From a virus: DNA of 30,746 nucleotides. Position 1 is the first letter of the stretch. Each line of letters starts with the position of its first letter. The DNA lies in the IMG/VR virus record IMGVR_UViG_3300029448_000085, positions 1 to 30,746 of that record; one strand, written 5' to 3'. The notes beneath the pieces were generated by a model. It did not search any database. It saw only the letters and a program-made list of their open reading frames with translations, and was not told where the DNA came from. Made by a program: the position numbers and the translations under genes. Shown here one piece after another: positions 2,163 through 30,746 of the stretch.

Positions 2163-4145
2163 TTATCCTCCGAACCTCATAATACCTAATGCTGATATAC
2201 CAACACCATGTATAGATGTTACATCCGTTAAAACTGGTTGTCTAGTACCACGCACTGTAATAATAGCATACAATGTATCACTTCCAACTACATCATTAGA
2301 TTGTATAGGATAAGTTATTCTTTCAACAACTCCTCTTATAATTTCAGATGGTTCAAATAATTCTAATGTTACAGAATCTCCTTCTTTATCACGAAGTGTT
2401 TTATATATAGCATCTCCTAAACCTTTAACTCTTAATGGTTTTCGACCAGGTCTTTCTACTCTATCTGATATATTAATTGGTACTTCAACTACAACTAATT
2501 CAGGCCTTGCTAATGCACGAAATTGTACAGATTTAACTTTAGGAGTATTAGTTCCAGTAGCACTATTAAGTATTACTTTACCTACAATATATCTTGAAAC
2601 TTCTGCAATTTGTTTTTCAACATCTCCAGAACCACCGACTTGTATTACTGCATCTGTATATGATGAATCATCTGGATTATCTAAAGATTCAAATTTTGTA
2701 GAATATTTTAATTCAACGCTAGTATCTGTATCTAATGTAAATGTTGATAATTCTGCACCTACAAATTGTTTTGATTCAGCTGTAAAAAAATCAGCTGCTG
2801 ACATTACTAAATAACCTGTTGAAGCATAAGTAGAACTTTCTTTAAATATATCTACACCTGCTACAGTCATAATAAATTTATCATTTGTATTTGTAATACT
2901 TGTAACAGGACCTGCACCACTCATAGACAAATCTCTAGCTATACCACCTGTTGGTAAATAATATCGCCACAAATTTGTTTCAGTACCAGATTCATTTATT
3001 CCACAATAAACACTATCTCTTGAAGTAAACATAAACTTTGGTGTTGTATCACGCCCTGCAATAACCCATTCTTTTATTAATTGTCTATTAGCTAAAACAT
3101 ATAAATCATCAGCTACAACTAATTCTGCTCTATAAAATCTTCCTACATCTCTTGAAAATTCTTTTGTTCCAAAAAATACTTGACCTTCTGCAGCTGCAAT
3201 AGAATGAACTTGCTCAAAAGGTATATTTGTTTGGCCTTTTAATATATAAGTACCAGCATTATCTTTAACTGAATATATATCTCCATTAGTACATGCTACT
3301 AAAATGACTGCACCAGCATCTACAACTTGAGAAACATGATGTGTATCTTCAAAAGAAAATAATGAATCTGCATTTGCTATATCTCCTGCTGCCCAAGTTT
3401 GATTAAATGGAGTTATAGCCCAAACTCTTTCTAACTCTCCATCATCTGCTGATATTATTAACATACCTTTAGCAAACCATATACCAGTTAATCCAGCTGC
3501 AGATGTTTGAGCTGTAGTTCTAGCGTTCCAAGAACTACCATTCCATTCTAATAATTGTGAAGCACTTGTACCATTAGCTGTAGTTGCAAATACTCTATTA
3601 CCTACAGATGTAATTCCTGTAAAATTATGTGTAGCACCTGTAGTTTCTGCAGCCCATGTGTCACCATTATTTGTTGATTTATATAAAGCAGTTGCATCTG
3701 TTACCCATAAATGTCCATTAGTAGTTTGTGTCATATAATTATTAGAACCAGAAAATGTAGTGCTAGAACCTTTTACATTTTTATCTTCAGTTGTATAAAG
3801 TAAATGTATATTGTATGATGTTTCATCATCACCGTGAAATACATCTATATTTTTACTATCCCAAAATCTATGAACATCATCTGGTTGTGCATCTAATCTA
3901 TGTGCAGTATCTAATCCTTGACCTGCTTTAAAATTATTTCTTGAATATATACGTCCTAAATTAGATGTAAAATCTTCTGGATTTTGTTTAACATTTATAC
4001 TTTGTTGTTGATTAACATCTGATGATTGTATTGTTAAAGGTCTTTCAGTAGATACAGCTGTTCTTAAAAATATATCATCTAATTGAACATCATATCCATA
4101 TCTTTTTGGATTTGTAATGTGTGAAGTATTAGCAACTCTTGGCAT
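2163..4145 (-). CDS. Large tail protein, probable nozzle/tail-tube component with propeller-like repeats
   Basis: A 660-aa protein with no signal peptide or membrane helix. Residues ~120-340 hold repeated blade-like units (LWVTDATALYKSTNNGDTW, NRVFATTANG, LLEWNGSSWNART, GLTGIWFAKGMLIISADDG), each a short beta hairpin with Trp and Gly, which suggests a beta-propeller. The flanking N- and C-terminal thirds are also beta-rich. T7-like nozzle proteins contain a propeller inside a tubular beta protein, and the position directly after the connector gene fits that role. I infer a nozzle or tail-hub function; no sequence signature proves it. The ATG overlaps the connector stop in TAATG, indicating stoichiometric coupled synthesis. 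Confidence 0.65.
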   Translation of the reverse strand: MPRVANTSHITNPKRYGYDVQLDDIFLRTAVSTERPLTIQSSDVNQQQSINVKQNPEDFTSNLGRIYSRNNFKAGQGLDTAHRLDAQPDDVHRFWDSKNIDVFHGDDETSYNIHLLYTTEDKNVKGSSTTFSGSNNYMTQTTNGHLWVTDATALYKSTNNGDTWAAETTGATHNFTGITSVGNRVFATTANGTSASQLLEWNGSSWNARTTAQTSAAGLTGIWFAKGMLIISADDGELERVWAITPFNQTWAAGDIANADSLFSFEDTHHVSQVVDAGAVILVACTNGDIYSVKDNAGTYILKGQTNIPFEQVHSIAAAEGQVFFGTKEFSRDVGRFYRAELVVADDLYVLANRQLIKEWVIAGRDTTPKFMFTSRDSVYCGINESGTETNLWRYYLPTGGIARDLSMSGAGPVTSITNTNDKFIMTVAGVDIFKESSTYASTGYLVMSAADFFTAESKQFVGAELSTFTLDTDTSVELKYSTKFESLDNPDDSSYTDAVIQVGGSGDVEKQIAEVSRYIVGKVILNSATGTNTPKVKSVQFRALARPELVVVEVPINISDRVERPGRKPLRVKGLGDAIYKTLRDKEGDSVTLELFEPSEIIRGVVERITYPIQSNDVVGSDTLYAIITVRGTRQPVLTDVTSIHGVGISALGIMRFGG

Positions 4146-10786: not shown

Positions 10787-12131
10787 AAATCATCCTTAAT
10801 ATATCTTTGTCTTCTTGTATAGATTTTTTACCAACTTCATATGATTCCATTTGTTCAGCATATATATCATCAAATCTATCTTCAGATTGTAGTAATGGAT
10901 TTTCTTGTGCTAATTGTGCAGAAATATCAGTCATATCATTAAATGTTTTCTTTTTCATTTCTGTATTTTCATCATTACCAAATGAAGCAAGATAACCTGT
11001 TTCCCAATCTCTTAACCCCATGTCTGATTGTAATGCCATTACATCTTTTACTAATGTACTAAATACACTTGAATAATTTAGTGCTATATTATTAGCCCAT
11101 TCTTCAATTTCTCTTTTACTACCTTTTCTACCAAGTTTTTGTTCAAACCAAGATTGCACTTCATCTTCTCTTTGTAATGGTGTCATTACTTGATATTGAG
11201 TTTTTAATTGATTTACAAGTTGTTCATCAGCCATTTGTTCTTCATAAGCTGCATACTTTTCATAATCTTTACGGATTTCTTGAATACCCCAATTAAATAA
11301 TTTAAGGTCTTGAGTTCTTCTTAAACCTTCTTCAGTTGGTACAGGTATATTATTATTATCTAAAGTGTAATCTCCAGCTTGAGAGCTACTAAAAAATATT
11401 GGGTCATCATTCATAATTTGATTCCACTGTTCAGTACCTTCTGCAATATAATGTTCGTTATCTAAATATGCCATAACTGTAACTACTGCAGCTTCTAATG
11501 CACTACTGTATTCACCTTCACTACCGATAAAAGTATTAGGTGCAACAACTCTATTTTCAATTAAATATTTTTGAAATTGTTCAATTTCTCCAAAATCTGT
11601 CATTGAGTTCATAAAATAATGAAAGTCTGTAGAAAAATGTGTTTGAAAACTTTTATATACAGGAGTTCCATTTTCCATTTTTTGTTTACCATTTTCATAA
11701 ACAGGAACTTTTCTACCAGCTTTAGCATCATATTCTCTATCTAAATCACCAGCACCCATTGCACCTAATACTTCTTCAAAAGAAGCACCACCCTGAAACA
11801 TTTGATAAACTGCTGATATTCCAGCTTCATCTGGTGCATTAAAATTATCTGGTTGTTTTCTTGAGTTAAATATTTTTTGTAATATTAAATCTACAAAAGC
11901 AGCTTCTTTATTACCATCAATTGCATCTTGAAGTTCTTGAAGATTTGTTTCTGTTAAATTATATTTATTTAAACCACCGTCATTAAAATTTTTTTCATTT
12001 AGAATTTGTAACATTTGGACACCAGAAGAGGCATCTATTCCTAATAAACCTGCATACTTTTTAACTAAATCATCTAGTTCATCTAAAGTAGCTTTATTTA
12101 CATTATCTGAACTTACGCTATAATCTACCAT
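10779..12131 (-). CDS. Probable internal virion protein, 450 aa
   Basis: A 450-aa acidic, helical protein. Near the N-terminus is DDLVKKYAGLLGIDASSGVQ, then Asn/Gln-rich helices, a segment with DREYDAKAGRKVPVYENGKQ, and a C-terminal half with QSWFEQKLGRKGSKREIEEW. The last piece resembles a helical repeat found in tape-measure-like and internal proteins. The family is not known to me. It is joined to the 2016-aa gene by a TAATG overlap, so the two are probably made in fixed ratio and may assemble together. No catalytic residues stand out. Confidence 0.6.
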   Translation of the reverse strand: MVDYSVSSDNVNKATLDELDDLVKKYAGLLGIDASSGVQMLQILNEKNFNDGGLNKYNLTETNLQELQDAIDGNKEAAFVDLILQKIFNSRKQPDNFNAPDEAGISAVYQMFQGGASFEEVLGAMGAGDLDREYDAKAGRKVPVYENGKQKMENGTPVYKSFQTHFSTDFHYFMNSMTDFGEIEQFQKYLIENRVVAPNTFIGSEGEYSSALEAAVVTVMAYLDNEHYIAEGTEQWNQIMNDDPIFFSSSQAGDYTLDNNNIPVPTEEGLRRTQDLKLFNWGIQEIRKDYEKYAAYEEQMADEQLVNQLKTQYQVMTPLQREDEVQSWFEQKLGRKGSKREIEEWANNIALNYSSVFSTLVKDVMALQSDMGLRDWETGYLASFGNDENTEMKKKTFNDMTDISAQLAQENPLLQSEDRFDDIYAEQMESYEVGKKSIQEDKDILRMIYG

Positions 12132-15100
12132 TAATCCTCATCAAACATATCTTCTAGTAATTCTTTATCGTCTCTATAAAACTTTAGCATAAGACTTGTC
12201 CATACATGCCAAAAATCAGGATATTCTGCTATAATGTCCTGTGCTATTTGATTCATAAGTATTCGCATAAATCTAGCTTCTGGTTTTTCTGATTCTAACC
12301 ACCAAGTTTTAGTTTTACTAGGTGATATTTCCATTGAGTATTTTTCAAATTCTTCCCATTGTTCTAACATTGCAACAAAACCTTTACCTGTTTCTTGTTC
12401 CATAATTAATTCATTACCAGGCCATACTCTTCTCATTTCATTAAATATATCTTTAATACTTACAGAACCAGGCAGTCCCCAATCATCTTCTTGGAAACCT
12501 TCTTTAGCAAGTATTAAATTATTTCTAAATTGTCTTTTAAGCATTGTTGCTTGTAATGTAGGTAAATCTGCTGAATCAATCATATTTTTGTAATTTGTAT
12601 ATGCAAAGTAACCCAATGTGTCATTAACTTTTCTTCTAAATTGGTCAGGTGTTAATTGTGTTTTTTCAGGAGCTAAATCCCAAGAAGCTCTATCTCCAGC
12701 TGGATTATCAGGCAATATTAAAAATGCAGACAATTGTGCTTCTTTTAATACTTCTCTATTATCATATCTCCACTTTAATGATTTTTGTGTATAGTTCTGT
12801 CTACCAGTATCTGATACTTTAGATGGTGCAGTTAAATAACCATGCTCCATACCATATGTTTCTAAAAATTGCATAGCAGCTTCAGCGTCATTACCTTCTT
12901 TATCTCTTAATATATTTCTATATTCATCAGCTAATACTTGAGCATTCCACATAGTTCCTTGTTTATCTTCTATATAGTAAGTAGGAGTAAATCCTGTAGG
13001 TAATATAAATTGTGCTAATGCTTGTACACCAAATAAATGCTTAGCTTTTGTTTTAGAATATTCTAAATATGCTTCATCAAGTACTCTTAAAAATTGATAA
13101 TATTCTTGAGAATACTCTGGAGCATTTGCTAATAATTCCCAATCTCTATCTACAGAAGTTAACCATTTATTCATTTTGCCAGCATCATACAACCTTCTTG
13201 GTTCACCAATAACAGAACCATATCTAAATATAGATATAGTTGCTGCAGCTCTCATTTGTGCAAATTCACTTTTTTCTATATTTAATTCATCATTTGTATC
13301 TGGAGTTAATGCAGCAAATGCTTTTTTAAGCCATGGAGACAACGGTACTAAATCTTTTATTCTTTCTGGAGGCAAGAAACCACCAAATAAAAATTCTTTA
13401 AATTCTGGTTCCCAACCTTCTATAGGTATAAGTTTGTCTAAAGCAAATCCTACAGCTGGGTTAGGACCTGGTACAAAACCTTGACCTAACAAATTAATAC
13501 CAGATAAATATGCTTTAGCAGCTATATCTACTTTACGTGTTTGTCCATTTTCATCTTTATATGTTTCTTTGCCATAAACTAATCTTGATAAGAATGGAGC
13601 AAATGGATACACAAACATTTTTTCATTTTCCCTACCAGGTTGTGGATTATTTGTAATCCAACCTTCAGTACCATATCCACCAATCTTAAATGTTTCACCA
13701 CCTCTAACAGCTACTTGTGCTTGTCTCATCATGTATGGTTTGTTTGCTAGTAACTTGCCCCATGTAGTTGCAACTTCAAACCAAATTTCAGGGAATGGAA
13801 ATATGTTTCTTGTTATATCAGATATAAGGTGTCGTTTAGATGCATCATACAATAAATCTTTAGTACCAGCTAATCCAAATGCTTTTGATGTATTATTAGC
13901 TACTTCAAATGTCATAGCACCTTTAGCAACAGGCATTGTTTTATTTAACTCTTTCATTTCATCAATAACAGGTTTAGGAATATTTAATGCTTCAGCTTCT
14001 CTAACAAATCTTGCTCTTGCATCTTTATTAAAGTTTGCCCAGTTTTCTGTTATATACATATAACGATATTGTTTAAATACAGTTGCTCTGTTTAAATAAG
14101 CTATTGGTTTTGTCATTAATGTATTAAATGCTGTATCAACAAAAGCATCCCAAGCTTGTCCAATTCTATTTTGATTATCTGCACTATCATCAATAGCTTT
14201 TACATAACCTAAATCTAAATCTAAACCTTTTCCTTTTTGCCCTTTTGTAATATAAGATTCTTGTAATATATCTGAAAGGTTTTCTAATTGTCTTTTGTTT
14301 AATCCAGGTGCTTTAAAATTAATATCTTTACCTTTAACATTATCTAATAAATTTCCTTCATAAATAAATCTTCTTAAATCTTGATTACCTAAACCTTCAG
14401 CTGATGCTGAAATATTAAATCTATATTTTGTATTAGGTAAATCACCTTCTTTAAAATTAGTTATTTTTACATATTGAACACCTTCTTCAACTTTTCCACC
14501 TGTTTTAAGTCTTATACGTGCTTCAACAGATTGTAAATATTGGTCGATAGTTTTTTTGTTATTAGTAATTCCTGACCATCTTCCACCACCCCAATCAGCT
14601 AAATCCTGCCTAGCTGCAGCACCTTCTTTAGAAAATATCCAAGCAGCTAATTCATCAGAACCATATCCAAACTGAGCTACTTTTCTTGATATTAAATCAT
14701 TTCTTAATTGTAGTAATTCCATTCTTACACCATCTACATATTGTTTAGTATTAGTATCTGTTTTTTTACGCATAATATAATTCATGCCTTTAATTCTTCT
14801 TTGTTCTCTACCTTGCATACCAGCTAAATTAAATGTTTTTTGTGTAGCTTCTAAATATTCATAACTATCCATTAATCTTATAGCATCAAGATTTTCATCT
14901 GACCAAGACATATATGCTTCTTCTTTAGTTAATCCTTTATCTAACCATTTTTTTAATTGTCCAGATGCAAATACTTCGTCTATTTGTGCTGCTTCTCTAG
15001 CTAAATTTCTAGCTTTTTTACCAGAAGTAACCCATTGAATATAATGTATAGGATGATTAAAAAATCCATCAAGGCCTGCAGCAACTACACGCATTTGTTC

Positions 15101-18100
15101 TTCCATAAATACCCTTGTAAAAAAAGCACCTCTTAAAAGTACAAATGGTTTAAATAACTTTCTTGTATAAAAGTCAGCAAGCATAGTAAAAGCATCCTCG
15201 TTTAATTTACTTGTTCCTAAATATCCATTTGCATATGGATTTGCAACATTCGCATCATCATAAAAATAAAAATTATATTTCATCCATCTACCAACATTTT
15301 TTGTATTTTCCATTGCAGCTTTAAATGCAGAATCAGCAGTTTCTAATTCATTCCAAGCATTACCATATGCACGTCTAATTAATCTGTAATCTATAAATGG
15401 TTGTATATTATCTGCAAATTCAGAAAACAAATGAGCTGAACCTATATCAATACCGTATGTTTCACCTTTATAATCTTGCCAAATCATTCTTTCAGTTTTG
15501 GTATATTTATTTCCTATATGAGGCATAGATATAGCTTCATCTGCATAACCACCTACAAAATATGCTGTAGCTGTTTCCATAGATGTATTGTACATTTTTG
15601 CAAAAGCTCTCATTACTGGTTGCCATTGACCACCTAATGTTTTTACTCTATTAACATCTCTTACATTTTGGTCAAACATAAATTTGCTAACTTGACGTTT
15701 TTTTCTAAAATCTATTTTCCAAAATTGTTTTGTTATGTTTGCCATTTCATCTAATGAATATCCAACTGTTTGTAAATGTGAAACTAATTGGTCGTACGCT
15801 GCATTTTTATTTAAACCTTTAATTCCAAAATCTGGTACTGCACTCATTAAACTTCTAAAATATGGGTCTGAATTATTATAAAAAGCAGAAGAAAATCCTA
15901 AGTATTTTTCAAACTCTGTTCCAGCTTTAGTATCAGTAATACCTATTTTATTTAATGCTTCATTTAATCTATCTTTAATAATTTTTGATTCAGTTTGTAT
16001 TGATTGTGGACCTACAACAAGTTCATCTGTAGATTTAGGTCTTACTAATCTTATTTGTTGTTTTGCAAAACTTTGACCTTTAGTAAATGTTCTCATAGCA
16101 CCTAAAGCTTTAATTGGTAATCCTGGTAATGCTTTTAATCCAGCAAGTCCAGCACCTATTGTTCTTGTAGTAACTTTAGTTGGCACTCTTAATACGCTTC
16201 CTAAATATGTACCAATACTTCTAAATGCAGCATCTTCTTTACCTAATACAGAATAAGTTCTTGCACCAATTCTTTGTAATACTGTTGGGTCTGGTAAATC
16301 TTTTAATTTTTTAGCTCTATAAGCATTTTGTATTAATATTTTATTAGTTAAAAAAGAAGCACCTTTAGGTAACATTTTGTCAGGTAAGTAATCTCTTGGT
16401 ACTTTACCTCCTACATAAACACCTTCATCTATTAATTTACCAAATGTATCTTTAACTCCATCAACACCTTTTTTTTCTGCAACACGAATTAATTTTTGTC
16501 TTGTGCTTTTTTGTAAATTTTTATAAACAGGATTTGTATCCATTAATACAGCTGCTATTTCTGGATTTTTTTGAACTTCTTCAACTAAAGGTTTGTAAAT
16601 TTTTTCAATCATAAAAGGCCTGTTAAGCATTTCATCTTTAGTTTCTCTAAATATTTTAGGCATTACATTATTAGCTAAATATTTTTTCTTAACTTTTCTT
16701 TCAACTTGACCAATTTTTCTTTTTCTTTTATAATTTTTCCAAATACCTAAATGGTCATTAATATCTTCAGCAGTATCACCAGGTTTAGTACCATCAATTT
16801 TTGGTCCTATATCATCTAATACTTCTTTTGCATCATCTAATGGAGAGTTGTTAGAAACTTTACCTGCTCTATTTATATCAATAGTTTTTGTTTGTGCATC
16901 TAATAAAGGATTTATTTGTCTTAAACCTCTTCTTGCTTTACCAATTTGTGATATACCTTTACCACCATAAAATTCTTCAACAGCCATAGCACTAAAATCT
17001 ATAGCTCCAGATAATAAATTATATGCACCTGAACCTGGTTTGGCGAATAAAGAAGCTTGATATCTTCCAGGAGAAAATAATATTCTTTGTTCTTCCTCAT
17101 TGTCATAAATAGATTTTTGTTGAAAAGCCCAACCACCTGCACCATATTGTGTATTTGTAGTAAATGCAGCTGTCATACCAGAAGATTTTCTACCAGCAAA
17201 AAAATGTATTCTTGATGGATTATCTAAACTTGTATAATGTTGTTCACCATTTTCATCATAAGCTTTTAATGGTCTACCTACTTTGTTATAAAATAAATCT
17301 TTAGCTTGTTGTTCTGAATAACCATATTCTGTAATTAATTCTTGATATCTTGGGTCATTTTCTGGTTTTAATGTCTCCATACGCATCCAGTGGTCTCTAT
17401 TAAAGTTAATAGGCCTACCTGCATACATTTCTTTCCACATAGTTCTAAATACAGTTTCACCACCCATTGTGTGAGCTTCTTGAAACATATCCACAAATTT
17501 GTTCAAAGTTCCTCTTACATCTAATTTTTCACCAATACCATCAACTTGAGTAAAACTAACATCAATAGCTAATGCATCTTGAGCTTCTTGTTTTGTAGCT
17601 CCTTGTCTTATTTTTCTATCATATAAAACTAAATCTCTTAAATATGCTTGAGACCTACCTACAGGCATCCCTCCCCATAACATAGGTACCATACCTGCAG
17701 GACCACCAGTCCATTTACCTCTTAAACCAAAGTTTTGCCAAAAAGCATCATAAGCTTGTGCAGCCCAAACACCATATTGTATATCACCTGGTTTAGCTCC
17801 ACCTTTTGATAATCCCATTGTCCAAAAATCAATTGGTTTAATATGCATAGTATTTTCAAAATCACCACCAAATTTATAATGGTCTTCAGTTAATTTATCC
17901 CATAACTCTGATTGTTCTTGAACATTAGATAAAGATACTTCTTCTACTATATTTTGTACAGCTTCATTTTGTGAAGCATTAGGTACAGTTAAAGCTATAT
18001 CTTTAGCTAATGTTTTTGGTAATGCTGGATATGCAGTTGTAGTGTCAATTAAATTATCACTAATAACTTGACCTTCAGGACTTTTAAATATATCTTGCCA

Positions 18101-18181
18101 AATCTTATATTGTTTATTTAAAGAATCTATAGCAGATAAATTATCTCTTTCTATAAAAGGGTCATTAAACAAAAAACCCAT
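12131..18181 (-). CDS. Giant internal-virion/ejection protein candidate, 2016 aa
   Basis: This single gene fills 6 kb, about a fifth of the window. The protein is mixed helical with few cysteines and no signal peptide. Visible landmarks are a Gly/Trp-rich region at ~150-180, a very basic patch at ~482-500 (KNYKRKRKIGQVERKVKKK), a helical, aromatic mid-part around 1000-1050 (FKPFVLLRGAFFTRVF), and near 1460-1490 an NIFPFPEIWFEVATTWGKLL segment that I recall as conserved among giant proteins of marine and actinobacterial phages. These are sometimes described as polyvalent or tape-measure-like proteins carried into the cell. No peptidoglycan hydrolase, polymerase or ADP-ribosyltransferase motif could be recognised by eye. 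Role by position: core/ejection machinery, possibly with a host-takeover domain. Confidence 0.7.
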   Translation of the reverse strand: MGFLFNDPFIERDNLSAIDSLNKQYKIWQDIFKSPEGQVISDNLIDTTTAYPALPKTLAKDIALTVPNASQNEAVQNIVEEVSLSNVQEQSELWDKLTEDHYKFGGDFENTMHIKPIDFWTMGLSKGGAKPGDIQYGVWAAQAYDAFWQNFGLRGKWTGGPAGMVPMLWGGMPVGRSQAYLRDLVLYDRKIRQGATKQEAQDALAIDVSFTQVDGIGEKLDVRGTLNKFVDMFQEAHTMGGETVFRTMWKEMYAGRPINFNRDHWMRMETLKPENDPRYQELITEYGYSEQQAKDLFYNKVGRPLKAYDENGEQHYTSLDNPSRIHFFAGRKSSGMTAAFTTNTQYGAGGWAFQQKSIYDNEEEQRILFSPGRYQASLFAKPGSGAYNLLSGAIDFSAMAVEEFYGGKGISQIGKARRGLRQINPLLDAQTKTIDINRAGKVSNNSPLDDAKEVLDDIGPKIDGTKPGDTAEDINDHLGIWKNYKRKRKIGQVERKVKKKYLANNVMPKIFRETKDEMLNRPFMIEKIYKPLVEEVQKNPEIAAVLMDTNPVYKNLQKSTRQKLIRVAEKKGVDGVKDTFGKLIDEGVYVGGKVPRDYLPDKMLPKGASFLTNKILIQNAYRAKKLKDLPDPTVLQRIGARTYSVLGKEDAAFRSIGTYLGSVLRVPTKVTTRTIGAGLAGLKALPGLPIKALGAMRTFTKGQSFAKQQIRLVRPKSTDELVVGPQSIQTESKIIKDRLNEALNKIGITDTKAGTEFEKYLGFSSAFYNNSDPYFRSLMSAVPDFGIKGLNKNAAYDQLVSHLQTVGYSLDEMANITKQFWKIDFRKKRQVSKFMFDQNVRDVNRVKTLGGQWQPVMRAFAKMYNTSMETATAYFVGGYADEAISMPHIGNKYTKTERMIWQDYKGETYGIDIGSAHLFSEFADNIQPFIDYRLIRRAYGNAWNELETADSAFKAAMENTKNVGRWMKYNFYFYDDANVANPYANGYLGTSKLNEDAFTMLADFYTRKLFKPFVLLRGAFFTRVFMEEQMRVVAAGLDGFFNHPIHYIQWVTSGKKARNLAREAAQIDEVFASGQLKKWLDKGLTKEEAYMSWSDENLDAIRLMDSYEYLEATQKTFNLAGMQGREQRRIKGMNYIMRKKTDTNTKQYVDGVRMELLQLRNDLISRKVAQFGYGSDELAAWIFSKEGAAARQDLADWGGGRWSGITNNKKTIDQYLQSVEARIRLKTGGKVEEGVQYVKITNFKEGDLPNTKYRFNISASAEGLGNQDLRRFIYEGNLLDNVKGKDINFKAPGLNKRQLENLSDILQESYITKGQKGKGLDLDLGYVKAIDDSADNQNRIGQAWDAFVDTAFNTLMTKPIAYLNRATVFKQYRYMYITENWANFNKDARARFVREAEALNIPKPVIDEMKELNKTMPVAKGAMTFEVANNTSKAFGLAGTKDLLYDASKRHLISDITRNIFPFPEIWFEVATTWGKLLANKPYMMRQAQVAVRGGETFKIGGYGTEGWITNNPQPGRENEKMFVYPFAPFLSRLVYGKETYKDENGQTRKVDIAAKAYLSGINLLGQGFVPGPNPAVGFALDKLIPIEGWEPEFKEFLFGGFLPPERIKDLVPLSPWLKKAFAALTPDTNDELNIEKSEFAQMRAAATISIFRYGSVIGEPRRLYDAGKMNKWLTSVDRDWELLANAPEYSQEYYQFLRVLDEAYLEYSKTKAKHLFGVQALAQFILPTGFTPTYYIEDKQGTMWNAQVLADEYRNILRDKEGNDAEAAMQFLETYGMEHGYLTAPSKVSDTGRQNYTQKSLKWRYDNREVLKEAQLSAFLILPDNPAGDRASWDLAPEKTQLTPDQFRRKVNDTLGYFAYTNYKNMIDSADLPTLQATMLKRQFRNNLILAKEGFQEDDWGLPGSVSIKDIFNEMRRVWPGNELIMEQETGKGFVAMLEQWEEFEKYSMEISPSKTKTWWLESEKPEARFMRILMNQIAQDIIAEYPDFWHVWTSLMLKFYRDDKELLEDMFDED

Positions 18182-23486: not shown

Positions 23487-23572
23487 GATGGGCTTGAGAG
23501 GAGTTCGCCATTTAATATATGGTTTAAAGTAACCAAAGTCCATCTAAGTATTTATTAAGGAGGTAATAAATA
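23487..23572 (+). promoter_or_regulatory. Structured leader with ribosome site in a hairpin loop
   Basis: GATGGGCTT (23487-23495) pairs with AAGTCCATC (23536-23544), enclosing smaller alternatives (CCAT/ATGG or GGTT/AACC). Next, TATTTATT (23549-23556) pairs perfectly with AATAAATA (23565-23572), leaving AAGGAGGT in the 8-base loop and the start codon at the stem base. The strong Shine-Dalgarno is therefore shown in a loop, a layout suited to control by a protein or RNA. Confidence 0.6.
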
Positions 23573-24132
23573 TGTGTCCCAAATGTAAACGAAAACATAA
23601 ACACGCAGTACTTGATGGAACATTATGTAATGAGTGTTGGGATTTGAGTTTTAGCGTTCCACTTCCCCCATGGGTTAGTTGGCCCGCTAAAGTAAATAAG
23701 GATAAAATGAAAGGAGCTACGATGTTAGCAAATTATCCAAGTTCACTAGATAATGTGAACACAATTGTTGCAACCGGTGCGTTGACAACATTAACTAGAG
23801 ATGGAAATCCAACTATTGGAGTTTCATCTAAAACTGGAGATAAATTTATGAATGGTCTTAAATTTATTTTTGATGGTAGAGATAATAAGCAAGCCAATTT
23901 GAATTGTGTTGCTTATGGAGAGGATTTAGTAAATCAAATTACTGAGTTCTTGAAAGCTAATCATACAGAAGGTAAAGTTAGACCATTTGGTAGGTTAATG
24001 GTTGAATGTAAAGTTCAAGCAAATAACTATGAAAAGAATGGCGTAATACAATATAAGAATGAACTTGTAATTAAGAACATTTGGAATGCACCTAGTAAAG
24101 GTGATGATAGCTTTACTTACGAAGAGGAGTAA
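23572..24132 (+). CDS. SSB-like protein with N-terminal zinc ribbon; internal start likely
   Basis: A 186-aa protein. Residues 1-45 have C2/C5 and C19/C22, a zinc ribbon. From ~58 the sequence follows the single-stranded-DNA-binding OB fold: VATGALTTLTRDGNP, a strand pair, LNCVAYGEDLVNQITEFLK (compare the usual LNCVAWGKLAE pattern), GRLMVECKVQ, and YKNELVIKNIW. It ends in an acidic tail (DDSFTYEEE) as SSBs do for partner binding. An internal ATG at 23722 (Met51) has AAAGGAG five bases upstream, better than many true starts here, and would yield a 136-aa SSB without the ribbon. Two products from one gene are likely. Expected role: coating single-stranded DNA in phage replication or recombination. 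Confidence 0.75.
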   Translation: MCPKCKRKHKHAVLDGTLCNECWDLSFSVPLPPWVSWPAKVNKDKMKGATMLANYPSSLDNVNTIVATGALTTLTRDGNPTIGVSSKTGDKFMNGLKFIFDGRDNKQANLNCVAYGEDLVNQITEFLKANHTEGKVRPFGRLMVECKVQANNYEKNGVIQYKNELVIKNIWNAPSKGDDSFTYEEE

Positions 24133-26897: not shown

Positions 26898-27107
26898 TTG
26901 TTAAATATAGATGATAAATTACAACAATTAGAAAAAGTGCAACTTATTCAAATAATTAAGTGGTCGCTTAATGATACAGAAAATGCAGCTACTAACTACA
27001 AAGGACTTGATAAAAGAGTTAAAAGTTGGTGTGCAATGTTAAACGAAGCAATCATTTATCAAATAGATAAAGCATACAATAAATTAGTTAAAGGAGAAGA
27101 ACAATGA
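26898..27107 (+). CDS. Small helical protein with TTG start, 69 aa
   Basis: A 69-aa protein read from a TTG start with AGGAG five bases upstream: MLNIDDKLQQLEKVQLIQII, then a helix with NAATNYKGLDKRVKSWCAML and a basic end. It is probably a short helical bundle. It is preceded by leader hairpin C2 and overlaps the next gene in ATGA, with AAAGGAG of that gene located in its last codons. The weak start codon and hairpin leader suggest that its level is deliberately low or regulated. Family unknown. Confidence 0.65.
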   Translation: MLNIDDKLQQLEKVQLIQIIKWSLNDTENAATNYKGLDKRVKSWCAMLNEAIIYQIDKAYNKLVKGEEQ

Positions 27108-27622
27108 GTGACATTGCTTTTAATAAAATTGATGCGCCTAATGAAGAACAACATAAATACGAAGTAATGATGTCATATCATAAAGATGATAGACATTTAC
27201 AAAACTTATCTGATTCTGAATCAAGTTTAGCTTGGGCAGAATTACATGATAATAGAATTGTTGTGTTTAAATACCATGTTATAGCTGGTTCAATTCAATC
27301 AGCTATTAATCGTGCTATTAAATTAGATGACCAACGTAAGTCAGAAACAGGTGCTACTTGGCCTAGTATATTTTCACAATGGGAAAATATGGCAGGTGAA
27401 CCATTAAATGATGATTTGTTAGAAAAAATGTATCATTTCTTACAGGAACAAGAACATTTTGAAGACTGGTTCAATGCACAACCAACTACAGTATCAGCAA
27501 TTTTATTAGATAATAAACCTATGGTACATAAAGATATGGAAAATCAATTTATAGAGAAAAATGAAACATTTATATCTGATATAGCTGATTGGGCAAATAA
27601 AGATGTAACTGAGGAGGAATAG
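27104..27622 (+). CDS. Uncharacterised acidic protein, 172 aa
   Basis: A 172-aa acidic protein. It shows a mixed N-terminal half (EVMMSYHKDDRHLQNLSDSE, then RIVVFKYHVIAGSIQSAINR) and a helical, Trp-containing C-terminal half (MYHFLQEQEHFEDWFNAQPT). No catalytic motif is seen. It starts in an ATGA overlap and ends with Glu-Glu-Glu codons that contain GAGGAGG, the ribosome site of the next gene. It belongs to the coupled run of five genes that ends with the HExxH-VWA gene, so it could be an accessory factor of that system, but this is position only. Confidence 0.6.
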   Translation: MSDIAFNKIDAPNEEQHKYEVMMSYHKDDRHLQNLSDSESSLAWAELHDNRIVVFKYHVIAGSIQSAINRAIKLDDQRKSETGATWPSIFSQWENMAGEPLNDDLLEKMYHFLQEQEHFEDWFNAQPTTVSAILLDNKPMVHKDMENQFIEKNETFISDIADWANKDVTEEE

Positions 27623-27927
27623 TGAGTATTGTTAACAACAATATCTCAAGAGAGGAACCACCTGCAGCTGGTTTAAGTAGAAGCGGTAAACAACCAACAT
27701 TACTTACAGATGACAAAGTCGAGACATTGTTATCTACACCAGAAGTATGGTATTTAATAGCAGAAACTGATACTTGGATATCAGGTGTTAAAAAGAATAT
27801 TGAAAGTATGAAACAAGTAAATATTAAACACCTAATAAACAAAGGTAAGTTTGAAATTAAACAACGTAAAAAGAAAAATGGAAATATAGGTATATATTGT
27901 AGATATATGCCTCATAAACCATTTTAA
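27622..27927 (+). CDS. Uncharacterised basic protein with GTG start, 101 aa
   Basis: A 101-aa protein from a GTG that shares a base with the previous stop (TAGTG) behind GAGGAGG. It begins MSIVNNNISREEPPAAGLSR, and its second half is basic (IKHLINKGKFEIKQRKKKNG then IYCRYMPHKPF), with the look of a winged-helix or small nucleic-acid-binding fold: a helix at ~45-60 and a basic hairpin near the end. This is a guess from residue pattern; no family is recognised. It directly precedes the MoxR-type ATPase gene. Confidence 0.6.
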   Translation: MSIVNNNISREEPPAAGLSRSGKQPTLLTDDKVETLLSTPEVWYLIAETDTWISGVKKNIESMKQVNIKHLINKGKFEIKQRKKKNGNIGIYCRYMPHKPF

Positions 27928-27946: not shown

Positions 27947-28690
27947 ATGGATTGTTGGAAATTAGTAGCTAACGCTATTGGTAATGCAGATAGAATATTG
28001 TTATATGGCCCACCAGGGACAGGTAAAACATATGCAGCTGCAACAAATAAAATAGGATATAACTTAGAGGGTGACCCTAATGTATATCAAATAACAATGA
28101 CAGAAGATACAGCAAGTGCAAACTTAGAAGGATTTTATAAACCAAATTCTTCAGGTGGTTTCGAATGGCATGATGGTATTGCAATACAAGCTTGGCGTAC
28201 AGGTGGTAGGTTAGTAGTTAATGAGATTGACCACGCATCGCCAGACGCAATGACTTTTATGCACGCTATTATGGATGACAAACAAATTGCACAATTGACA
28301 TTAAATAATGACAATAAAGAAACTGTACGACCAAAAAGCGGTTTTACTGTTATTGCAACAACAAACTCTGAACCAGATAGTTTGCCTATGGCATTGAAAG
28401 ATAGATTTCCTGTAAAGATTATGGTTGATACTATACATCCTGCAGCATTAGAAATCTTTCCTAAGTCATGGCATAAAATTATATCTGATACATCTTTAAC
28501 AGAAGATATTGATATAAGATTATCTATTAGAAGTTGGAAAGAGTTCTTTGATTTAACAGCTAAAGGTGTAAAGAAAAAGACTGCAGCTTATTTAGTCTTT
28601 GGTACACGTGGTGAAGAACTACTTGACGCAATCATACTTGCTGATGAAGCAAATATTGATGAGTTAGGTAAGTTAAATGAAGAGGAATAA
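27947..28690 (+). CDS. MoxR-type AAA+ ATPase
   Basis: A 247-aa AAA+ protein of the AAA_5/MoxR type. Walker A is GPPGTGKT (21-28). Walker B is LVVNEID (89-95), with Asn at the usual first Asp, a change I recall in other phage and midasin-like members. Sensor 1 is ATTN (137-140), and an arginine-finger candidate is R153 in LKDRF. The lid region is short. Such ATPases form hexamers and work with VWA-domain partners to remodel proteins or insert metals (CobS/CobT, NorQ/NorD, CbbQ/CbbO). The gene immediately downstream encodes a VWA protein, overlapping by 14 bases. AAAGGAG precedes the ATG by nine bases. Confidence 0.85.
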   Translation: MDCWKLVANAIGNADRILLYGPPGTGKTYAAATNKIGYNLEGDPNVYQITMTEDTASANLEGFYKPNSSGGFEWHDGIAIQAWRTGGRLVVNEIDHASPDAMTFMHAIMDDKQIAQLTLNNDNKETVRPKSGFTVIATTNSEPDSLPMALKDRFPVKIMVDTIHPAALEIFPKSWHKIISDTSLTEDIDIRLSIRSWKEFFDLTAKGVKKKTAAYLVFGTRGEELLDAIILADEANIDELGKLNEEE

Positions 28691-30170
28691 TCACGTAAAT
28701 GCACCATTTCCAGAGATAGTATCAGGTAAACCTGATTGGAAAATCTTTGATGATGCAGATAATCCAAGAACATCTAACTTATCAAAAGAAATGCACGTTC
28801 CATTAAATAATGAATGTGAAGATTGTGGTATAAACCATTCAAAGTTAATACGTAGGCATGAACTTGCACACGTTAAATGGTCACCACAAACTATTGGTAA
28901 GTTAGGACCTGATGAAGATAGTAAATCAGTTGAAGTATGTGAAGAAGTTAGAGTTAATTACTTACTAATGTTAAAAGGATTACCACTTGATGATTGGTGT
29001 ATGTGTGAATACAAAGTAGAACTTATGATAGAAAAAGCTATATATACGTTCTCAGAGTATGAATTAATATGTATGTTATTAGCTATGATGTGGCATAATC
29101 CAGAAAAAGAAAGTTATTACTGGAATCGTGCTGCAAACAATCCAGAATATGAATTGTTTTGTCTTAGAGCTAATGAACATCTTGATGGTACAGAACTAAC
29201 AGGATTAAGAAAAGCACAAATAAAATGGTCTATAAGACAAGCTGATAATTTTTATAGACGTATTTGTCAAAATCGTAGTTCATATACTAACAACGTTAGT
29301 TATCGCAAAGTACGTAAAGTAGCTAAAGAATTACATAAATTACGTGATGAATTTAATGAAGTTCCTAAAGATGAGGAAGTTTATGAATCTTTACGTAAAG
29401 CTAAAGAAGCAGAGAAAAATAAAGCTTCTAGTAATCGTAAAGCACCTAGTACAAGTGATAATGATAGTGATGATAATGTAACATTAAGTGAATCAATGTT
29501 AGAATCTAAACAACAATTGTTAGAAATGATGAGTGGTGGAGATATACTTTATACACCTGATATTAATAATATGACAGGTAGATGGGGTTTAATGGATATC
29601 TATACACCAGAACTTAGTGTTAACCTACAAGGTAAAATCAAAGGTGGTAGAGAATATAGACCTATGGATTACGGTGTTAATCCTAAGTATATGAATAGAT
29701 GGTGTGTAGATAAGAAAGTCTTTAAACAAAGACAACGTACTTATGGTGGTACAATTCTTATTGATGCATCTGGTTCTATGCAATTTTCAGGTGATGATAT
29801 ATTAGAAATAATGCAAATGTTACCTGCTGTAAAAATTGCAATGTACAATTCTACTAACAATCGTGAAGGTTGGAACCATAATGTAGGTTCATTACGTATT
29901 GTTGGCAATAAAGGTAAAAGAGTTAATCAATTTTACTTAGATAAATATAGTGGTGGTGGCAACTTAGTTGATGGCCCAGCATTACGTTGGCTAAGTAAAC
30001 AAGCACCAAGCAGAATCTGGGTATCAGATATGTATGTATTCGGTGCTGATAATACAAGTAGTGCTAACTTATTGAAAGAGTGTAACCAGATAATGAAACA
30101 ATCTGGGATAACTAGGTTAGCTAATATAGATGATGTGAAACGTTTCGCATTACAAATTAATCAACTATAA
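28677..30170 (+). CDS. Zincin-like (HExxH) protein with C-terminal VWA domain
   Basis: A 497-aa two-part protein. The N-terminal part has HELAH at 61-65, then VCEEVRVN at ~87-94, where E89/E90 may be a third zinc ligand, in the style of the ED-x-R motif in CobT- and DUF2201-type proteins. A Lys/Ser/Asp-rich linker (~232-275) follows. The C-terminal VWA domain (~355-480) has the MIDAS DASGSM (363-368), a glycine stretch SGGGNLVDGP, and VSDMYVFG (449-456) as the second metal-loop element. MoxR-VWA pairs act as ATP-driven chaperones; the intact HExxH suggests that cleavage or metal handling is also possible. No Shine-Dalgarno is evident, so translation probably depends on the ATPase gene. Substrate unknown. 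Confidence 0.8.
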   Translation: MKRNNHVNAPFPEIVSGKPDWKIFDDADNPRTSNLSKEMHVPLNNECEDCGINHSKLIRRHELAHVKWSPQTIGKLGPDEDSKSVEVCEEVRVNYLLMLKGLPLDDWCMCEYKVELMIEKAIYTFSEYELICMLLAMMWHNPEKESYYWNRAANNPEYELFCLRANEHLDGTELTGLRKAQIKWSIRQADNFYRRICQNRSSYTNNVSYRKVRKVAKELHKLRDEFNEVPKDEEVYESLRKAKEAEKNKASSNRKAPSTSDNDSDDNVTLSESMLESKQQLLEMMSGGDILYTPDINNMTGRWGLMDIYTPELSVNLQGKIKGGREYRPMDYGVNPKYMNRWCVDKKVFKQRQRTYGGTILIDASGSMQFSGDDILEIMQMLPAVKIAMYNSTNNREGWNHNVGSLRIVGNKGKRVNQFYLDKYSGGGNLVDGPALRWLSKQAPSRIWVSDMYVFGADNTSSANLLKECNQIMKQSGITRLANIDDVKRFALQINQL

Positions 30171-30180
30171 TACAGGGTTA

Positions 30181-30245
30181 GGATGGCGTCAACACGCAAG
30201 TGTGCCTGGTCCTCCTTTCCCAGGTTAAGCGTCATCCTTTCTCTT
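30181..30245 (+). ncRNA. Three-way-junction RNA with anti-Shine-Dalgarno loop, possibly also the terminator
   Basis: P1 joins GGATGGCGT (30181-30189) to GCGTCATCC (30229-30237), with two G-T pairs. P2 is ACAC/GTGT (30192-30195 with 30200-30203) capped by a GCAA tetraloop. P3 is CCTGG/CCAGG (30205-30209 with 30220-30224) with loop TCCTCCTTTC. That loop repeats CCTCCTTTC, the 16S rRNA 3' tail that pairs with Shine-Dalgarno sites. A moderate T tract (TTTCTCTT) follows P1, so the element may terminate the operon and leave a stable 3' RNA. Confidence 0.6.
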
Positions 30246-30287: not shown

Positions 30288-30518
30288 ATGACAGATATAA
30301 ATAAACTGTTATCTGAAGCTGAGTATGGCCTTAAAGGTAATTTTGTAGAAAATAAAATTACTGAAGAGGCTGCTGAGTTTTGGTCAGCAGTAAAAAATAG
30401 GGTTATCAATGATAAAGTAAAACTAAAACCATACACATTGTGTAGAATTTTAGAAGAAAATTACAGTATAAAAATATCAGAAACAGCTATGAATAATTAC
30501 TTAAGAAAGTTAAGTTAA
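30288..30518 (+). CDS. Small helical, possible DNA-binding protein, 76 aa
   Basis: A 76-aa protein beginning MTDINKLLSEAEYGLKGNFV. The first half is helical with EEAAEFWSAVKNRV, and the second half is basic with a helix-turn-helix-like run (KLKPYTLCRILEENYSIKIS, then ETAMNNYLRKLS). The start at 30288 is chosen because the longer frame from 30183 would run through the three-way-junction RNA and the promoter. The start of the next gene has a similar acidic helix (NIDEILAEAES), hinting at related ends. Likely a small regulator or packaging-type HTH protein; not proven. Confidence 0.65.
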   Translation: MTDINKLLSEAEYGLKGNFVENKITEEAAEFWSAVKNRVINDKVKLKPYTLCRILEENYSIKISETAMNNYLRKLS

Positions 30519-30640: not shown

Positions 30641-30746
30641 CAAAGCTTCAGGTCAGGTTAGAGAGTTGAGATACTGCCCTAACGAACCTTCTGCGTGGAG
30701 AGACGAGCAAAGCGACAACGCAAGGCGGCAGCCTGTCGTATTTAAC
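30609..30746 (+). CDS. Conserved phage-type protein, 5' part only, cut by window edge
   Basis: From ATG 30609 the frame stays open to the window end: MMQQSGVTTFDKASGQVREL, then RYCPNEPSAWRDEQSDNARR and QPVVFN. I recall this 'RY.P.E.S.w.DEQSDN...P..F' pattern from hypothetical proteins of T4-like and marine phages, without a defined function. GC content here (~50%) is far above the rest. It lacks a ribosome site at the ATG, so it is more likely the continuation of the gene starting at 30518 across a one-base shift. The 3' end is not in the window. Confidence 0.55.
   Translation, partial: MMQQSGVTTFDKASGQVRELRYCPNEPSAWRDEQSDNARRQPVVFN

Follow-up and report, generated by a model that had tools for sequence, protein, structure and literature searches.

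A MoxR-type ATPase and a peptidase-like VWA protein encoded together, ahead of a candidate structured RNA, in a group of small uncultured phages

The window, the whole stretch of 30,746 nucleotides that was analysed, comprises bases 1–30746 of a 45,144-base virus record. Towards its 3′ end, the plus-strand reading frame of an ATPase (27947–28690, 247 amino acids) overlaps by 14 bp the plus-strand reading frame of a VWA protein (28677–30170, 497 amino acids). An earlier note on this DNA had described a coupled phage pair of a MoxR ATPase and an HExxH-containing VWA protein with no matching metabolic gene; both reading frames are present, and we also found no such gene. The locus contains the following features:

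27622–27927, plus strand: conserved 101-residue protein encoded directly 5′ of the ATPase gene, the best candidate for an accessory factor (conservation among homologues).
27947–28690, plus strand: MoxR-type AAA+ (AAA_5) ATPase (Pfam AAA_5; residues invariant in 77 distinct homologues).
28677–30170, plus strand: 497-residue co-factor with a zincin-like N-terminal domain, a helical middle part, and a C-terminal VWA domain with a MIDAS (motifs and AlphaFold2 model).
30181–30237, plus strand: candidate three-way-junction structured RNA (covariation and covariance model).
30288–30518, plus strand: next conserved gene, 76 residues, no assigned function (start shared by most homologues).

The gene 3′ of the RNA probably begins at position 30288 and not at 30183, judging from its homologues, which mostly start at the equivalent of 30288; the reading frame starting at 30183 reads through the RNA.

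The first scan of IMG/VR identified 29 loci with VWA proteins of 43–100% identity, wider VWA queries found 36 and 31 loci, and an ATPase scan returned 159 relatives, 80 of which were kept. Loci from the separate scans overlap, so that the counts given here refer to loci or distinct sequences rather than to independent genomes. The VWA gene is located directly 3′ of the ATPase gene in 139/139 ATPase loci, with a gap of −40 to +7 bp, and the nine loci with only a VWA gene start at a contig end inside or at that gene. Travelling of the two genes together in related phages had been set as a test of their coupling, and they were never found apart. In the first 29 loci, the order of the gene at 27622, ATPase, VWA protein, 30183-like gene, and metallophosphatase is kept wherever the contig extends. 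The protein encoded at 27622 is 57–100% identical in near relatives, contains invariant motifs, is present in 107/139 ATPase loci, and belongs to no Pfam or PHROG family. Of the three upstream genes that had been suggested as coupled specificity factors, only this one is widespread. Those at 26898 and 27104 occur patchily or diverge strongly among relatives and were rejected as fixed specificity factors. SSB-like, Rad52-like, and metallophosphatase genes share a plus-strand block with the pair, and the SSB-like one (23572–24132) was named by eye, without a family match; the virion genes are on the minus strand. The metallophosphatase gene, intact in homologues, is broken by a run of N at positions 30745–30760 of the record, just past the end of the window.

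The ATPase passes the Pfam cut-off for AAA_5 (66 bits vs 22, E 4e-18) and contains a Walker A motif GPPGTGKT, a Walker B motif VVNE (VVN92E93), sensor-1 residue N140, and Arg finger R153. Its sequence identity within the phage group is 66–96%. The catalytic Glu, sensor 1, and Arg finger are invariant in the 77 distinct homologues, and Walker A is intact in nearly all of them. The position of the Walker B Asp is occupied by Asn in 77/77 homologues, with the catalytic Glu kept, and this exchange could reduce ATP hydrolysis. In the PDB, the ATPase profile matched the sequences of Midasin, NorQ, and CbbQ best, although Midasin differs in containing several AAA modules per chain, which inflate its profile score. 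All three are ATPases of the MoxR/AAA_5 class that work with VWA/MIDAS partners or domains; they act on ribosome precursors, NO reductase, and rubisco, respectively.

The VWA protein contains the motifs HELAH (residues 61–65), CEEVRVN (88–94, with EEVR at 89–92), DASGSM (363–368), and SDM (450–452), and its N-terminal domain also carries CxxC..H...C. DxSGSM is invariant in 86 aligned sequences and SDM in 85/85 that cover that stretch; the MIDAS residues D363, S365, S367, and D451 are invariant in all sequences covering each of them. All 86 sequences have Asn (N429) in place of the MIDAS Thr; the cyanophage and IncC plasmid proteins described below have GGT there. Judging from the alignments, the Asn residues in Walker B and in the MIDAS are conserved departures and not signs of decay. 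The claim that both active-site sets are intact therefore applies to HELAH, DASGSM, and SDM of this phage, but not to Walker B and the MIDAS Thr position. The pattern of motifs in the VWA protein is shared by more than 80 distinct homologues and is therefore not due to chance.

The HExxH triad (H61, E62, H65) is intact in 69/84 distinct VWA homologues and lost in 15/84, which carry the degenerate variants KQLGY, KQIAH/KQIGH, TELAH/VELAH, LQLGH, or HQLGR and have EExR altered as well. On a tree built without the motif columns, the loss requires three changes, two of them forced by well-supported branches, compared to 14 with shuffled labels. The gluzincin combination of HExxH and a downstream Glu does not extend across the whole family, and is complete in the window phage. 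The zincin-like motif that had been read from the sequence is thus intact in this phage but optional among its relatives, and the repeated loss of the catalytic site with retention of the MIDAS weakens an obligate protease role. Residues C47, C50, H54 (84/84), and C110 (86/86) vary less than the triad, and suggest a structural metal site. The pair could be a host-takeover or anti-defence protease or unfoldase that dismantles a host complex, which would be consistent with its plus-strand position among non-virion genes, with the missing metabolic partner, and with the HExxH motif being complete in this phage and most relatives. However, the protease motif was lost about three times, and the pair is universal in the group and its ATPase well conserved, unlike rapidly swapped anti-defence genes. 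We consider this explanation improbable.

The AlphaFold2 model of the VWA protein, calculated from 52 sequences, has a pLDDT of 83.8 and a pTM of 0.79. HELAH is in a helix of residues 55–68, EE89–90 is in the next long helix (82–99), and strands are formed in the segment 22–41; as modelled, the helices of the N-terminal domain follow the order expected of a gluzincin. A PDB fold search with this model gave no significant match, with selecase at E 0.97. An earlier model based on 21 close relatives (pLDDT 59.7) was set aside, and fold searches with it were not used. The protein has no match in Pfam or NCBIfam and one in PHROG (phrog_33218, function unannotated). A profile search found no relatives in the PDB, and tblastn none in 50,697 phage records and none in plasmids.

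Pairs of a MoxR ATPase and a metallopeptidase-VWA protein are known from jumbo phages, where a role in virion assembly with processing has been proposed (Iyer et al. 2021, PMC7824862). Such viral pairs have also been termed cobST, and the "peptidase" annotation of the cyanophage protein was judged mistaken (Liu et al. 2021, PMC8651126); this annotation is explained by the HExxH motif of that protein. Viral MoxR-VWA pairs have thus been read in two competing ways in the literature, as a cobalt chelatase and as a virion-assembly protease, and the present phage group provides a comparative test, with invariant MIDAS and ATPase residues, an optional protease motif, and a putative host family lacking CobN. 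The pairing was already known, and the present pair is a divergent small-phage version of it. Compared by architecture alone, it resembles the jumbo-phage pair (PMC7824862) in that a MoxR AAA+ gene adjoins a gene whose VWA product has a metallopeptidase domain at its N-terminus. It differs in belonging to phages of another group with genomes of about 45 kb, in the structured RNA behind the pair, in the absence of a VWA sequence match in the phage records searched, and in the partial loss of the peptidase motif.

A viral MoxR ATPase with a VWA partner is also represented by p618/p892 of ATV, which were concluded to function in tail development (reviewed in PMC4124505). In contrast to the present pair, they lack a peptidase domain according to Iyer et al. 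(PMC7824862), and belong to an archaeal virus with extracellular tail development. Together with the jumbo phages, ATV provides precedent for a virion-assembly chaperone that processes structural proteins, and the pair is present in every sampled phage of the group, as expected of an assembly factor. Nevertheless, the pair is located outside the minus-strand virion genes, and several lineages do without the peptidase motif. Furthermore, the wider architecture is also carried by IncC conjugative plasmids, which make no virion, and this speaks against virion assembly as its general role. A function in virion assembly is therefore unlikely, even though it is the strongest of the alternatives considered here.

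In the IncC plasmids, genes for an AAA ATPase and for a VWA protein containing HEAAH..LEDCRIE and DMSSSM are found together with bet and exo. They resemble the phage pair in having a zincin-type motif and a MIDAS in one VWA protein and an AAA+ gene in the same block, but differ in that bet, exo, and other genes separate the two. We found no discussion of the AAA and VWA genes in papers on IncC/SXT recombination genes. In a Cupriavidus plasmid, the gene of a DLSGSM protein with HECAH precedes that of a MoxR ATPase, and dnaE lies a few genes further on. In Gordonia phage ChisanaKitsune, the gene after that of an AAA-ATPase encodes a CobT-like protein, which contains HELCH and DASGSM. Cyanophage S-H25 contains a 706-residue "peptidase" (HEVGH..LEDARIE..DWSGSM) near "CobS" and beside sliding-clamp and clamp-loader genes, and the arrangement in HTVC008M is similar. 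The cyanophage and pelagiphage pairs share with that of the window the succession HExxH..E[DE]xR..DxSGSM near an AAA+ gene, but their ATPase identity is about 27% and their gene order is opposite, with the peptidase first. Profiles of the family and of the cyanophage peptidase could not be aligned over their full length; the zincin-motif region alone was alignable, with the HELGH..EEVR stretch matching the cyanophage HEVGH..EDARI stretch (hhalign probability 46%). This HExxH..ExR motif and the common architecture are the grounds for a putative kinship with the VWA proteins of plasmids and cyanophages.

The bacterial host bears on the cobalt-chelatase reading. A locus with a 78%-identical VWA protein is present in the Actinomycetota MAG contig PBPX01000048.1, which may be misbinned, and the metallophosphatase is nearest to those of Streptomyces phage Dagobah and of an actinomycetia phage. 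The host is likely, though not proven, to be actinobacterial, and the uncultured phage group probably infects marine actinobacteria. CobN/Mg-chelatase H (PF02514) is missing in the MAG and in all 42 genomes searched in the putative host family. These genomes are small and probably incomplete, and their assignment as hosts is indirect; the same search detected CobN in 5/14 control genomes. CobT proper (PF06213) scores above the cut-off in 0/198 Actinomycetota genomes. Because the CobN and CobT searches were negative in the host family and the Actinomycetota, respectively, a cobaltochelatase role is unlikely. The ATPase reaches 14.9 bits with the CobS equivalog model, compared to a cut-off of 558.55, and Pfam CobT matches neither the VWA protein nor two divergent homologues. 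The suggestion of a CobST-like cofactor-insertion module is thus not supported. For similar pairs of tailed viruses, it has been proposed that a viral CobST takes over the CobN of the host for cobalt insertion into the corrin ring (Liu et al. 2021, PMC8651126), and cyanophage homologues of the ATPase are annotated as CobS, but against the missing CobN and the negative CobS and CobT comparisons we regard such a role as very improbable for this phage. The comparison within this group speaks against accepting labels of such genes as "cobST" auxiliary metabolic genes as they stand.

The same RNA element is positioned between the VWA stop codon and the next gene in 136/136 loci with downstream sequence. 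In the window, it comprises P1 of 9 bp, P2 of 4 bp with a GCAA loop, P3 of 6 bp with a UCCUCCUUUC loop, and a UAA junction. Across loci, P1 has about 9 bp, P2 usually 4 bp with a GNRA-type loop, and P3 6–7 bp, the junction is UAA or a variant of it, and CCUUUC in the P3 loop is kept throughout. An explicit three-way-junction parser fits 64/66 distinct RNA cores. In 15 sequences of the window clade, standard pairs make up 99.3% of the pair cells, 15/19 pairs vary on both sides, and a covariation score of 0.787 was obtained, compared to 0.241 after shuffling (0/500) and at most 0.128 after sliding. The last P1 pair, read on the plus strand, is U-G in 10/15 of these sequences and the first P3 pair is G-U in 13/15, and two A-C cells are the only non-pairs. 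The frequent wobbles on this strand, and the A-C cells as sole non-pairs, indicate a plus-strand RNA.

The covariance model R1 recognizes the RNA in the window with E 3e-19, the window being one of its 15 seed sequences, and detects it behind the VWA gene in a distant clade (E 2e-14 to 5e-3). Exactly one copy was found in 18/21 whole records. The RNA of the distant clade is about 165 nt long with four more stems; 96.9% of its cells are paired, and 19/43 pairs have changes on both sides. RNAalifold favours a helix competing with P1 in this clade. The three-way junction is preferred because the competing helix has no compensatory changes, but the RNA might switch between both. Rfam 15 gave no match over the RNA core at the gathering score, either in the window or in two further searches, and ARAGORN called no tRNA at its position. 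Three pattern-scan matches in viral contigs outside the group, which lack the ATPase-VWA pair and are not recognized by the RNA model, were rejected. The element is a new candidate structured RNA with strong covariation in phages apparently infecting marine actinobacteria, and is the newest part of the locus. The P3 loop (window positions 30210–30219) appears to resemble the anti-Shine-Dalgarno tail of 16S rRNA; as CCUUUC is conserved, the loop might base-pair with ribosome-binding sites. Many loci have a −10-like hexamer across the end of the VWA gene, overlapping its stop codon, but the promoter count in the region equals that of shuffled sequences; a separate promoter of the RNA is no more than a possibility.

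The pair and the RNA could form one ribonucleoprotein machine, similar to the VWA protein Ro60/Rsr with Y RNAs. Wherever downstream sequence is available, the RNA follows the VWA gene, mostly as one copy per record, while between about 110 and 730 nt separate it from the next gene. However, any element at that place would co-occur with the pair in these syntenic phages, so adjacency alone is insufficient to demonstrate that the RNA works with it. The VWA protein has no TROVE or RNA-binding domain (Pfam, E ≤ 1), and model R1 did not find the RNA beside the cyanophage and plasmid pairs tested. We consider such a ribonucleoprotein doubtful, and it is equally doubtful that the RNA is a targeting or scaffold part of the MoxR-VWA remodeller, a combination of which we found no description.

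A tRNA-like element with a 7-bp acceptor stem, a T-arm, and an ACCA or ACTA end is located behind the RNA in locus L061 (5520–5598), and also in L056, L057, L058, L067, and L072, about 85 nt past the VWA stop codon. The L061 element scores 51.4 bits with the Rfam tmRNA model and lacks the mRNA-like part, and ARAGORN calls none there.

Based on the conservation of the two proteins and their genomic context, a function of the pair can be proposed. The pair is a divergent small-phage form of the known phage module and most likely acts as an ATP-driven remodeller with optional peptidase activity. A remodelling or adaptor function outranks proteolysis, because the MIDAS is invariant whereas HExxH was lost in 15 of the 84 homologues through three changes. 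More specifically, we favour, at somewhat less than even odds, a client-remodelling machine of the DNA-metabolism region. The MoxR ATPase would be the motor, presumably hexameric, and the VWA protein its dedicated adaptor, whose MIDAS metal site may couple to the ATPase, the client, or both by docking. The N-terminal peptidase-like domain would hold the client and, since the gluzincin-type motif is complete in this phage, may also clip it. The likeliest client is a phage or host complex that acts on DNA during infection, and not a metabolic enzyme or the virion, because the pair is in the plus-strand block with the SSB-like, Rad52-like, and metallophosphatase genes; the pair probably acts early. 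In a handful of examples, the genes neighbouring similar pairs, namely those of the sliding clamp and clamp loader in T4-like cyanophages and pelagiphages, bet/exo in IncC plasmids, and dnaE in Cupriavidus, are by analogy consistent with a role in DNA metabolism.

Further genes were noted in other parts of the record. A minus-strand protein of 2016 residues is encoded at window positions 12131–18181 and has no Pfam family above the cut-off. A 100-residue SET-domain protein (PF00856, E 9e-9) encoded at record positions 34687–34989 is conserved across the phage group. Similar minus-strand proteins are encoded near both ends of the record (window positions 2163–4145 and record positions 44524–45144), and are probably tail-protein paralogues or the result of a duplication.
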